A stretch of 64,000 nt of DNA from an uncultured Fidelibacterota bacterium (GTDB taxonomy: Bacteria; Fidelibacterota; UBA8477; JABMPR01), in assembly GCA_937888365.1 (NCBI GenBank), contig CALBFA010000074.1:1-64000 (forward strand), given 5' to 3'. Shown here piece by piece: positions 1 to 4,516 of the stretch. The notes beneath the pieces were generated by a model, which saw nothing but the letters and a program-made list of their open reading frames with translations, had not been told where the DNA came from and ran no database searches. Position 1 is the stretch's first letter. Each line of letters starts with the position of its first letter. Made by a program: the position numbers and the translations under genes.

Positions 1-89
1 CATACTCCATTTGTAACATCAATAATAACAACAACTAGCCTTGGACTCATAATCCTCTGTTTCAGGATTCAAATCCCTGTGGATCCACA
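1..89 (+). repeat. tRNA(CAT)-like 3'-half remnant, copy 1 (att-like)
   Basis: Positions 41-89 read as the 3' half of a tRNA. There is an anticodon stem-loop with loop CTCATAA (anticodon CAT, as in tRNA-Met or tRNA-Ile2), a T arm with TTCAAAT in the loop, and an acceptor-like 3' strand ending in CCACA. Positions 1-40 are AC-rich and do not form a D arm. The first 55 nt are identical to 4204-4258, and the full 89 nt align without gaps to 4204-4292 with 7 differences, all in the variable, T-arm and acceptor part. An intrinsic terminator follows. I read it as a displaced tRNA 3' end left by site-specific integration; a degenerate tRNA gene is the alternative. Confidence 0.5.
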
Positions 90-94
90 ATTAG

Positions 95-129
95 AACCCT
101 CGTAATTCTTAGACTTACGAGGGTTTTTT
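95..129 (+). terminator. Intrinsic terminator after tRNA-like copy 1
   Basis: An 11-bp perfect stem (95-105 with 115-125), a 9-nt loop and a run of T. It sits just downstream of the tRNA-like remnant, where a tRNA terminator would be. Confidence 0.85.
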
Positions 130-160
130 GTATTACAAATACATCGATTACGTTACAAAT

Positions 161-195
161 AAAAAGCCCCTGAGTTTTATGCTCAGAGGCTTTTT
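161..195. terminator. Bidirectional intrinsic terminator
   Basis: A 14-bp stem (161-174 with 182-195) with one mismatch, flanked by A-run and T-run so that it can work in both directions. It lies 60 bp beyond the stop codon of the minus-strand gene ending at 255 and probably ends that operon. Confidence 0.8.
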
Positions 196-254
196 ATTCA
201 TTTCAAAAATTAAAGGTAGTATGTTCTACTGTGTCTTGCTAAATCTACACTTTA

Positions 255-1940
255 TTACTTCAAGAATGATCCAAAACTTACCTTCTCTTTGTTAGGACTC
301 GTCATTTTTCGTGGCGTAGTCAAGTTAGCAATTAGGTAACTTTTTTCACTCCCAGGCATAATTGGAATCACAGCGTTTTCAAAACCGTCTCTAATAATTC
401 TAAAAGATCCAGAGAAATCTTCCGATACACCCATGATGTGTAATTCACCGACCACAGAAATAACGGTGAACGGTACATTTGACTCATCAACATATAACCT
501 ATACTCTTCATTTTCTGACACAGGGAAAGGATTGAAGTAAATTATTACTTCTCTCCCCGCAAATTTGGAGATGGTTGGAATTTTAATTTCAGAAGCTTTT
601 TTCGACGAACTAATAGTCACGGTATCTGTATACGAATAAATGGTTACATACTGCTTTCCTGGAAATGATTCTTCAGCTCGCCCAAAAGTGTTAATTACAT
701 ATTCTCCTTTTGGTAGCCCTTTATATATAACAGATTTTTTACTATTAGATATAACACTACTGATACTGTTATCAAGAGTGTGTTTTATTTCGTCATTTTC
801 GTAATAACCTGTAATAATTCTCTCCGTATGAGTTGAATCAGAGCTATAATATATTTCATATTCTAGACCATTTTGCAAGTTGTCTAGCCTTATATCACCT
901 ATGATTGGAGGAGGAGGAGGAGGCAATGGTGGAGCTGGAGGAGGAGGAATTAGCTCAATGGCAAAATCTTCATTTCGTAGAGCTATCACTGATATTATTT
1001 GCTCGTAATTATCAGCCTTTTCATACCCGATTAACTGCACATTTATTTTGTAATCTCCTTGGAGAAATGAACCAGTCATTTTTCTGCCAAAATTAGAAAA
1101 AATATATCTGTATTCTTTAGGTGTAGAGCCAGCCTTCAAGGCATATTCTGGAACGGAATAATTAAGAGTCTCGAAGGATGTACTTGAAACCATTTCAATA
1201 TCCTTATCAGTCGTTTCAATGACTTTCCCTGCAGCTTTCGTACGAATTTGCCGAATTGTTAATGTATTCCAAGCTATCTTTCCAATGCTTGTAGAATCTG
1301 CATATAAAATAATGGAAGAAGTAAATGGATTTAGTATATCAGCCATGATTTCATCTACTGTAGATTCTATTCTACTTCTAATAGTGTTTAACTGGTCAAA
1401 CGGAATTGAGATTGATACGGAGCTCAAAATATCTTGGGTTGATACATCAAGTACTTTCAAATCGATTTCGAATTGTAATCCTCCAATGTTCAAACTGGGT
1501 CCTGTTTGACTATTAGGTAATACCTGCCCTCCCCCCACGACATTCAGTTCTCCAATCATCACAAAATCTGTTTCTTGCGGATATGATGATTCCTTTACTA
1601 GCTCAAGAACATTCACAGTCGAAATTCGGTTCTGAATAGATTCACCTGCAATTTTCATTTGCTTATATTTTGCTAGCGAAGAGGTCACCATTGCAGAAAC
1701 TATTTTAGGATGTATCTGCTTCATTAGTATAAGATTATCCTGAGTTTGTATCCTAGTATTAGAAATAGGGCTTGTTGGTTGAGATTCAGTTATTGTCTTC
1801 TCATTCCAAAGAAAAAAAGTGGAATCATAACTAACAAAATGATGAATGTATATCATTGGAGGGTCAGATGTAGTAAAAGTATTTGACCCAAATAGAATGT
1901 TGACTAATACTATCAGTAAAACTAATGCTTTCAGTTTCAT
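255..1940 (-). CDS. Exported protein with TolB/CsgG-like N-terminal region and Pro-rich linker
   Basis: A 561-residue protein with a signal peptide (about residues 1-19, hydrophobic core ALVLLIVLVNILF). Residues of about 25-220 resemble the N-terminal fold of TolB/CsgG-type proteins: an amphipathic helix region, the phrase TDFVMIGELNV and a strand ending DVSTQDILSSVSISI. A polyproline linker (IELIPPPPAPPLPPPPPP, around residue 335) precedes a beta-rich C-terminal half of unknown type. The start is preceded by GAGGAGAT at good spacing. The ATG overlaps the stop of the upstream gene as ATGA, so the two are translationally coupled. I do not recognise a specific function; an envelope or outer-membrane assembly role is inference only. 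Confidence 0.8.
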   Translation of the reverse strand: MKLKALVLLIVLVNILFGSNTFTTSDPPMIYIHHFVSYDSTFFLWNEKTITESQPTSPISNTRIQTQDNLILMKQIHPKIVSAMVTSSLAKYKQMKIAGESIQNRISTVNVLELVKESSYPQETDFVMIGELNVVGGGQVLPNSQTGPSLNIGGLQFEIDLKVLDVSTQDILSSVSISIPFDQLNTIRSRIESTVDEIMADILNPFTSSIILYADSTSIGKIAWNTLTIRQIRTKAAGKVIETTDKDIEMVSSTSFETLNYSVPEYALKAGSTPKEYRYIFSNFGRKMTGSFLQGDYKINVQLIGYEKADNYEQIISVIALRNEDFAIELIPPPPAPPLPPPPPPIIGDIRLDNLQNGLEYEIYYSSDSTHTERIITGYYENDEIKHTLDNSISSVISNSKKSVIYKGLPKGEYVINTFGRAEESFPGKQYVTIYSYTDTVTISSSKKASEIKIPTISKFAGREVIIYFNPFPVSENEEYRLYVDESNVPFTVISVVGELHIMGVSEDFSGSFRIIRDGFENAVIPIMPGSEKSYLIANLTTPRKMTSPNKEKVSFGSFLK

Positions 1941-3547
1941 TTGTCATCTCCTCTCAAGTTTGACAATTCACCTACATGGATGACATCTCCAGTATTAAGG
2001 TCAATTACTCTGTACGTTATAGCAATTTTCGAATAGGCTTCATTGCTGGAAGTTATTTCTTCATAGGGAATTAGATTGTTATAAAGTACCAAAATATCCA
2101 CACCAAAATCTCTTATTTGTTTCCATTCATCTAAATAAAGTGGATTTAGATTGAATATTTTATTTTCATACATCCATGGACGCTTTAAGTAGAGCGTCTT
2201 TAGTTTCTCATAAACAGAAAACTGCTTTTCTCCCCCTCTTTTTACAAGCGCAGAAAGCATTCCTTCCTCAAGTGCAAGATGCATCTCATTATATTTCTGA
2301 CGGTTTTCACCATACTTTTGAGCCTCTACCGCCTGTCTATCGCCATCAACAATCATCAATTTTTTACCATTCAGCAATTCATAATTGAAGGAATAGTTGA
2401 ATTTTTCAGCAACAATATTGTGATTTGAGAAAACTCCAGAATTCATTGTGTTTTCAAAAGGGATAACATCAGAAAAGAATATTTTCCCATTATTCGTTGC
2501 GTCCAACATACGGATATAGATACCCTCTTTAGGGATGTAACGATACATAATCAATTCTGTACAGCCAGTTGCGCTGATGAATTCTGACCACTCCTCATAG
2601 AGTAGAGGATTGGTATTAAAAACAATACTATTATACACTGCCGGATACTTGAGTTTAAATCCGGTAGATTTCTCAATCATAAATGGCGGTAATCCTTTAT
2701 AATCTTTATTTTCAATTAATCCAGAAATCAACCCATTCTCAATGGCCATCATGCTTTTTGAAGGTGCGTTTGAATAGCCACTACCAATATTTAAGATATC
2801 CATATCTAATACTGCTGCTTTAGATAGCTTAGAGAAAATATTTCCTTGGAAATCAAAGTTGCTAATAGCAGAATATGTCTGATCGAATTTAGAAATATTC
2901 TCCTGATTTAACTGCTCATATGAAAGACCACCCTTTATCACTGTTGAGCCAAGAATTCGCATTGATTTTAGATCCACTAGTCTAAAATAAATAATTGCAG
3001 ACATCCTTACTTCCGAGAATTCTATTACCTGATATTCTAAAAGTAGTGAAGAATTATAATCCTTTGTAATAATGCTATGCTCATTAAGATTAATTCCATG
3101 CATATAAAACCCTTGTTGAGGGGACGTCCCAACAAATTCACCAGCGTCTCTTGGAGATATAAAATCCAACTTTTCTGCAATCTCATATTCACTCGACAGA
3201 AGTCCTTTTATCAATCCATTCTCTAAAGCTAAATCCCACTGATTCATCTTTTTATAAGCTGAGCCTATCCCAAATTCATCAACTCGAGCAACAAATATTC
3301 TCTCGTTTACATACTTAGGGGGTATTTTTGAAAGGAAAGTAATAAAACCATCTGAGTCGATTACTTGTTTACCTAAAGTCCCTACATCTAAAAACCTTTT
3401 CGAATTTTCAAGTATTGCGTTAGCAATTTCAGTTGGGGTCTCTTCTGGAATGGCCTCTTTTTTTAGAAAGCTTGTATCAATACACCCTGTGATTATTAAA
3501 ACTAGAACCACAATCCAAAATCGAATTTTGGAATTACTTTTTCGCAT
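1937..3547 (-). CDS. Lipoprotein with three tandem CsgG-like modules
   Basis: The start at 3547 is chosen because GGGGTGAAGG precedes that ATG, and the protein then begins MRKSNSKIRFWIVVLVLIITGC, a clean lipoprotein signal with Cys as residue 22. An in-frame ATG at 3589 would put 14 unnatural residues in front. The mature part (about 515 aa) contains three related modules whose helices read ALENGLIKGLL, AIENGLISGLI and ALEEGMLSALV. The second and third also share an NxNPLxxxEW motif and a strand ending in a hydrophobic run plus Y. These recall CsgG/LpoB-type lipoproteins, which are usually single-domain. It is the first gene of a two-gene operon with the 255-1940 gene and lies between the tRNA-like repeats. 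Function unknown. Confidence 0.8.
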   Translation of the reverse strand: MRKSNSKIRFWIVVLVLIITGCIDTSFLKKEAIPEETPTEIANAILENSKRFLDVGTLGKQVIDSDGFITFLSKIPPKYVNERIFVARVDEFGIGSAYKKMNQWDLALENGLIKGLLSSEYEIAEKLDFISPRDAGEFVGTSPQQGFYMHGINLNEHSIITKDYNSSLLLEYQVIEFSEVRMSAIIYFRLVDLKSMRILGSTVIKGGLSYEQLNQENISKFDQTYSAISNFDFQGNIFSKLSKAAVLDMDILNIGSGYSNAPSKSMMAIENGLISGLIENKDYKGLPPFMIEKSTGFKLKYPAVYNSIVFNTNPLLYEEWSEFISATGCTELIMYRYIPKEGIYIRMLDATNNGKIFFSDVIPFENTMNSGVFSNHNIVAEKFNYSFNYELLNGKKLMIVDGDRQAVEAQKYGENRQKYNEMHLALEEGMLSALVKRGGEKQFSVYEKLKTLYLKRPWMYENKIFNLNPLYLDEWKQIRDFGVDILVLYNNLIPYEEITSSNEAYSKIAITYRVIDLNTGDVIHVGELSNLRGDDK

Positions 3548-4203
3548 AACCTTCACCCCTTTTTTGTTTAATGTTTTGATTAATTTCAAAACATCCTTTT
3601 TACTAATTCAGTACTCAAGTTTAGAACGGTGATAATGTAGATGCACACCTAATTGGTGCAACTGAAAACTGCTGTTTAGCCTCCCAAACTCTTTCAGCTT
3701 CAAAAACATAGTATATGTCTAAAAATCATACACTTACACAGTTATTTAAATTTTGACAATAATTATCATGATTATCGGTTAAGCAAGCCGAGGAAACGAT
3801 TTTGGCTGATTATGCGAAAATGGGGCAAATTTTGGACATGCATTTTTTCATCATTTTCTCAGCTTTTTGAATTTGAAAAAAACAACTCAAAAAAATATTT
3901 TCACGTCAAAAGGTAAATTTGTTGTAACTCACGCAAGAAAAATGGTAACCGAGATGATTTATTCTATTCCCAGTAAACACAACAATATGTGACTTCTGAA
4001 TACATCGTCACAGCAGATACTTTTTTAGCAGCTAATAGATTGAATCTCATGTGACGTCGTTCTAGCCAGCTTTAAATAAAAAACTATTTGACTCAACGTG
4101 TACTATAGAATACTATAAACGTCTAAGCCATTGTTAATCTTATCTATCCAGTCGCTGTAACACTCAAAATAAGGCACTAAAAATCGAGTAGGCACATCAT
4201 GGG
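3548..4203. other. Non-coding AT-rich stretch
   Basis: No credible gene. It must hold the promoter of the minus-strand lipoprotein operon. Two GATAAT hexamers 3 nt apart (minus strand, about 3762-3776) form a small palindrome that loosely resembles a Fur-type box; this is weak. The right end, up to the second tRNA-like repeat, shows no recognisable integrase remnant. Confidence 0.5.
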
Positions 4204-4292
4204 CATACTCCATTTGTAACATCAATAATAACAACAACTAGCCTTGGACTCATAATCCGCAGGTTCGGGGTTCAAATCCCTGTGGGCCCACA
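4204..4292 (+). repeat. tRNA(CAT)-like 3'-half remnant, copy 2 (att-like)
   Basis: The second copy of the 89-nt unit found at 1-89. Its tRNA part is better preserved: anticodon stem-loop around CTCATAA, a T stem CGGGG/CCCTG with one G-T pair, and an acceptor strand TGGGCCC followed by ACA. The upstream GGGCATA at 4201-4207 could pair with most of that acceptor strand, but 43 nt separate it from the anticodon stem and no D stem is visible, so it does not fold as a normal tRNA. It is followed by its own terminator, different in sequence from that of copy 1. Confidence 0.5.
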
Positions 4293-4297
4293 GTTTT

Positions 4298-4333
4298 ATC
4301 CCTTATAGTTCAGCGAATTATAAGGGATTTTTT
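4298..4333 (+). terminator. Intrinsic terminator after tRNA-like copy 2
   Basis: A perfect 10-bp stem (4298-4307 with 4319-4328), an 11-nt loop and a six-T tract. It has the same layout as the terminator after copy 1 but unrelated stem sequence. Confidence 0.85.
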
Positions 4334-4516
4334 GTTTCGGTGAGTTAAATCCAAATATGTAAAAATAGTATGCGCTTTTGAAGCTGAGCAACTGTAAACA
4401 GAATTCCTTCCCTTCAAATTCCAATAATAAAATAATTCCAGATTTTCCATTAATACACGATAAAATACATCTCATTATTAGCTTGACATCTATTTATTTG
4501 ATATTTAATTATTGCT

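Follow-up and report, generated by a model that had tools for sequence, protein, structure and literature searches.

Tandem islands behind tRNA and tmRNA genes, including integrase-less ones, are already known, as are CIMEs and additive flexible islands. CIMEs and their tandem accretion have been described for the ICESt1-related elements (reviewed in PMC5704250), and 15 islands without integration modules at the ssrA gene of Dehalococcoides have been proposed to be CIMEs (PMC3146451). The locus described here lies in an uncultured bacterium of the Candidatus Neomarinimicrobiota, at the start of a 64,000-nt stretch of DNA (the window). Its first segment, positions 43 to 4245, is very probably a 4203-bp integrase-less, CIME-like cassette in a tandem array of elements integrated site-specifically at a tRNA-Met(CAT) gene.

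Like a CIME, the segment lacks integration and transfer genes and is bounded by att sites, and it is probably stacked with an integrase element where the target gene ends (PMC5704250). Arm and core are present on both of its sides, and recognition by the resident integrase is predicted from a shared motif. The cassettes here differ in being 0.9-8 kb long with one common arm, in their association with integrase elements that look phage-like rather than conjugative, and in that their movement is putative. The Dehalococcoides locus is similar in that many tandem islands lie behind one RNA gene, the 3' end of which is repeated at the island borders, but a serine recombinase and tmRNA operate there, as opposed to a tyrosine recombinase, tRNA-Met and a core in the anticodon loop here (PMC3146451). 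The additive flexible islands of Methylopumilus (PMC10872708) and Alteromonas (PMC5217437) likewise consist of cassettes gained and lost largely by site-directed recombination; in the present case, which is from another phylum, an arm specific to the integrase can be told apart, together with the sites that the integrase probably binds.

Tycheposons of Prochlorococcus and other marine bacteria are cargo elements at tRNA genes, tRNA-Met among them, that have tyrosine recombinases (PMC10872708, PMC11389934, PMC10803314). The window segment differs in that it carries no recombinase with its cargo at the tRNA border, although the presumed neighbor on contig C68 has one, and in that replication and satellite genes were not found. 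Islands of the type detected by Islander have ends marked by a regenerated tRNA and a displaced 3' fragment, and include an anticodon-centered attP class (PMC4383910). Islander calls tandem arrays only where every island has its own integrase (PMC4383910), so arrays such as this one, in which the integrase lies beside the intact C68 tRNA and not inside 43-4245, would be missed. The C68 integrase is not of the IntI type found in integrons (44 bits against a cut-off of 265), and the sites here are recognized by a conserved arm plus a tRNA core. A literature search for such islands in the Marinimicrobia yielded two papers, both on viruses. What is new is the phylum, together with the many small integrase-less cassettes that share one arm.

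Repeats and cargo of the first segment

The direct repeats occupy positions 1-129 and 4204-4332 and are 84% identical over 129 nt. The initial annotation had described a two-gene segment bracketed by duplicated tRNA(CAT)-like 3' halves within 89-nt direct repeats; the pair is real, with a tRNA half in each copy and no mismatch over the first 55 nt (1-55 and 4204-4258) in the repeat comparison. Those 55 nt had also been taken to be entirely non-tRNA. They divide instead into a 42-nt non-tRNA arm (1-42 and 4204-4245), which in copy 2 extends leftward to about 4186, and the 13 nt GGACTCATAATCC (43-55 and 4246-4258), a portion of the anticodon arm. From GGACTCATAATCC onward each copy continues as the anticodon-to-acceptor half of tRNA(CAT) (43-89 and 4246-4292), decayed in copy 1 and identical to the intact gene in copy 2, and is followed by a hairpin terminator of its own, as had been annotated; the first hairpin was found by eye and the second by scan as well (Table 1).

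Table 1. Features at the left end of the window.
Feature	Position	Strand	Basis
Attachment arm belonging to the left-hand element, cut short where the contig begins	1..42	+	Identical to 4204-4245; arm model match G000:C74:1-55, E=3e-11
Displaced tRNA-Met(CAT) 3' half, copy 1, decayed; left end of the 4203-bp cassette	43..90	+	85% identity to intact gene
Hairpin terminator behind copy 1, CCCTCGTAATTCTTAGACTTACGAGGG + T run	98..130	+	Sequence; terminator of the intact tRNA is similarly placed
Another hairpin terminator, AAAAGCCCCTGAG..CTCAGAGGCTTTT, which faces the operon's end	158..198	.	Terminator scan
Cargo gene 1, exported-looking protein, 561 aa, family-less	255..1940	-	ORF; homologue always beside gene 2
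Cargo gene 2, lipoprotein-like, up to 550 aa, family-less	1937..3589	-	ORF; in 10/245 phylum genomes
Cassette's own P'-type arm, two putative arm-type sites, AGTAGGCACAT and CATGGGCATAC, 11 bp apart	4186..4245	+	Arm model E=5.6e-15
Core GGACTCATAATCC, anticodon loop, inferred strand-exchange region	4246..4258	+	Conserved block in alignments
Displaced tRNA-Met(CAT) 3' half, copy 2	4246..4293	+	First 47 nt identical to intact tRNA on C68
tRNA terminator behind copy 2	4298..4334	+	Half tRNA + terminator 92% over 93 nt vs those of the intact tRNA

Elements stacked in this way run from a tRNA half to the next arm, and the unit is therefore 43-4245 rather than the 1-4333 proposed at first. Contig C74 (109,172 bp) begins at position 1 of the window, which means that the left part of the array is cut off. 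No complete tRNA was found inside the window or within the repeats, the Rfam matches in the window were merely sub-threshold tRNA-like and terminator-like ones (a trpB match at 158..198 fell below the gathering score), and no third copy of the arm was found in the window's genome (G000).

Copy 1 begins exactly at the contig end, which would suit a repeat produced there by segmental duplication or misassembly. Such an origin is highly improbable, however: the tRNA halves and terminators differ between the copies, the same arrangement occurs in 11 other genomes, and repeats of this kind lead one to expect contig ends at these sites. Among the 26 arm sites on contigs of known size, 8 lay within 150 bp of a contig end, compared with 0.5 expected from rounded contig totals. 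Chance is excluded as well, because there are 29 arm sites in the family, a reversed-pattern control gave 0 matches in 245 genomes, and identity drops outside the conserved block. The repeat observation is thus confirmed.

The cargo consists of two overlapping leftward genes whose products both look exported, in keeping with the exported-protein operon of the initial annotation; gene 2 more likely starts at an in-frame ATG, at 3547. Neither protein had convincing relatives in Pfam, NCBIfam, PADLOC or the PDB. Gene 1 was adjacent to gene 2 in all ten genomes of the phylum that had gene 2, and the pair was conserved as a unit across three families of Neomarinimicrobiota. The operon was found in 3 of the 20 genomes of the window's family and was absent from 17, as expected of a unit that should be missing in some relatives. 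In G010 its neighbors are ordinary metabolic genes and there is no att site on the visible side, which indicates that the operon also lives outside arrays. The two genes probably form an accessory surface operon that can be exchanged. ORF and family searches of 43-4245 found no integrase and no integration or transfer genes, in agreement with the earlier reading, and base composition did not clearly set the cassette apart.

The intact tRNA gene and its flanks

An intact tRNA-Met(CAT) gene sharing the displaced 3' half was found in the same genome at C68:71902-71975. Directly behind it, and facing it, is a 341-aa tyrosine recombinase (Phage_integrase); both a gene of this kind and an integrase had been set out as things to look for. 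ARAGORN called the tRNA Met, and with a CAT anticodon Ile2 is a possible alternative identity. C68 stops about 2.4 kb past the tRNA, the far end of the integrase element was not found, and the rest of the element gave one weak match only, at 29%, to a protein on C57. The intact tRNA and the displaced 3' fragments of the window's genome are thus on different contigs, and the assembly holds no join between C68 and C74; we infer that C74 lies downstream of C68 and that the window is linked to the C68 tRNA. An intact tRNA and a displaced fragment in the same orientation were found on one contig in G006:C72, G015:C89 and G019:C160.

Comparison of the flanks at the genus level, with no second genome from the window's own genus in the set, showed that the 4 kb upstream of the tRNA (the dnaG-like side) were 70-95% shared among nine relatives, compared with 0-16% for the 4 kb downstream in the relatives with enough sequence. 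The sizeable downstream sharing came from the integrase element itself (G000, G010, G011 and G019) and from the pair formed by G016 and the second tRNA of G010. No empty site can be shown for the window's genome, the flanks of which are not syntenic with the other genus, and the pirin-like gene downstream of copy 2 was not near tRNA-Met in other genomes. Rows of such cassettes at the same tRNA in relatives, a conserved 5' flank, a 3' flank almost unshared among the nine relatives compared, and a cargo in only 3 of 20 family genomes indicate that this locus is a genuine gene-swapping hotspot of a known general type. Serial integration at a tRNA gene, which the initial annotation had suggested, is largely right, given the intact tRNA, the adjacent integrase, the unshared 3' DNA and the 29 arm+core sites described below.

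Arm sites and cassettes in the family

Matches to the tRNA half were found in 18 of the 20 family genomes, and the arm model identified 29 arm sites in 12 of the 20. The arm+core loci belong to Candidatus Neomarinimicrobiota MAGs; a strict arm+core pattern was present in 8 of 245 genomes of the phylum, all but one in the window's family, and the arm pattern was not found in viral contigs. Counted from the core, identity among the arm+core sites was 0.6-0.9 between -60 and +12 and fell to about 0.26 beyond these limits. Two or more sites stood in tandem on single contigs (G007:C64, G007:C222, G006:C72, G016:C21 and G010:C62).

Integrase elements were located at the tRNA in G000, G010, G011 and G019. 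In G002 the element lies behind a displaced core, as does the fragment of one in G008. The integrases of G002, G010, G011 and G019, with the G008 fragment, were 61-64% identical. In these elements a series of four or five TGGACA/TGGGACA/TGGGCACA repeats, spaced at about 11 bp, lies some 80-125 nt beyond the tRNA, and the C68 element has tandem sites of the TGGGCACA type at the same spacing. The window arm shares this motif, its AGTAGGCACAT and CATGGGCATAC being 11 bp apart and placed as are TATGGACACTT and TTTGGGCACAC in L046. A repeat layout of this kind is expected of integrase arm-type sites from established integrase biology, and the repeats are likely to be such sites. A prophage in G015 has a 28%-identical integrase and the same core but ends in a different arm, which indicates that the core is a property of the tRNA, and that the arm goes with the integrase. 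That the displaced 3' end retains the arm of its element, another part of the initial annotation, is borne out by the 29 sites in 12 genomes and by arm types that differ with the integrase.

The G015 prophage itself (G015:C89:5730-41898; L044, L045) is about 36 kb long, is inserted in the same tRNA-Met, and has tail genes and, at its far end, the different integrase. An AbiE cassette follows it, and the second arm type accompanies the prophage.

Fourteen complete cassettes, delimited on either side, were 0.9-8.3 kb long and had unrelated cargo; no integrase was detected in any of the fourteen. Cargo included MntA/HepT-type toxin-antitoxin and AbiEi/AbiEii systems, a COX1-family (NO-reductase-like) protein with a Crp regulator, an alcohol dehydrogenase with a cNMP-binding regulator, sensor/regulator pairs, large exported proteins, and an alkaline phosphatase with a glycosyltransferase. 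The MntA/HepT cassette was reused among genomes, being 79-84% identical over about 720-830 bp in four of them with different neighbors. At G007:C64:9816-9930 (L041) the arm adjoins a 3' half that comes from another CAT tRNA (GGGCTCATAAGCCGTCGGTCACAGG...). G007 yielded no intact copy of that tRNA, which suggests that this junction arrived from another host.

The tRNA halves were lost or interrupted at several sites, the half in copy 1 of the window is decayed, and an integrase fragment survives at G008:C164. All three would be expected if serially integrated prophages or islands had lost their integrase and core genes by deletion, leaving the repeats as fossils and the two cargo genes as ordinary chromosomal genes. 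We consider this somewhat unlikely, since decay of the tRNA half has left the arms in front of it conserved (42 of 42 positions identical in the window's genome), cassettes with unrelated cargo have the arm in common, and the MntA/HepT cassette recurs beside different neighbors.

Several small inserts were also seen at the att sites. REP-like palindromes of roughly 33-60 nt (GCGTCTTCGCC..GGCTACGCCGGCACACG) directly follow GGACTCA(T) in five of them (L048:14354 and 15533, L049:~14200, L059:~6043 on the minus strand and L042:~8900 on the minus strand), the insertion point being the anticodon loop of displaced tRNA halves, and the palindrome resembles a small element with a specific target. In several other displaced tRNA halves it is the T-arm that is interrupted, by a related insert, ATTCGGAACAAGCTGCCAGTGGCAGGTTGTGGAGAAAGGCGAGAGCGGAGCTCGCAGCC, at L041:475-556, near 6390 in L064 and near 14230 in L049. 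IS110-family transposases adjoin arm+core sites at L042:9010-9693 and L064:5175-6233; insertion at recombination sites is known for the IS110 type.

Proposed movement of the cassettes and its implications

In the mechanism that we favor, serial integration at the tRNA gene, a phage-type tyrosine integrase of the C68 type would cross over in the anticodon loop, at CTCATAA within GGACTCATAATCC. The incoming element would bring a 3' half and a terminator that make the tRNA whole again, and the previous 3' half would come to lie behind the arm of that element. The window unit has neither an integrase nor P-side sites, and it would therefore move by accretion with an integrase-bearing neighbor, be moved by an integrase acting in trans, or no longer move. 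Either of the first two routes would account for movement of the cassettes in general. Several observations run against this explanation: copy 1, which its position would lead one to expect to be the younger, is more decayed than copy 2, C68 and C74 are unlinked, the window's genome offers no syntenic empty site, and the operon of G010 stands in an ordinary chromosomal context. The identical arms beside the decayed tRNA half hint at continued use or at a recent exchange of arms, in a comparison of two copies only.

The integrase might instead excise and insert each cassette singly through pairs of arm+core sites, as in an integron, which would make the array a cassette-capture system. The small size of the units, down to about 1 kb, the MntA/HepT cassette common to genomes in which its neighbors differ, and the within-array arm that adjoins part of a different CAT tRNA, its 3' half, for which no intact source gene was found in that genome, all point in this direction. 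The cassettes have only P'-type sites, however, and a P-side cluster was found only with the integrase elements; given this, a cassette may excise by itself only inefficiently or not at all. The data can also be explained by accretion with an integrase element or by homologous recombination from arm to arm, and we regard single-cassette capture as unlikely. It is quite unlikely that the family uses a phage-type tyrosine integrase, with a core in the anticodon loop of tRNA-Met, as an integron-like platform on which integrase-less cassettes of about 1-8 kb, each with one P'-type arm, a regenerating tRNA 3' half and a terminator, would be picked up and shuffled one by one in trans.

Island finders that require each island to have an integrase would overlook such arrays. 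With a defined arm, core and integrase, movement of single cassettes and accretion of integrase-less cassettes can be directly distinguished using purified parts. For this uncultured marine phylum, the arrays indicate that a single tRNA gene can accumulate accessory genes, among them defense modules, sensors and exported proteins, as small cassettes that have only a putative integrase-binding arm in common.
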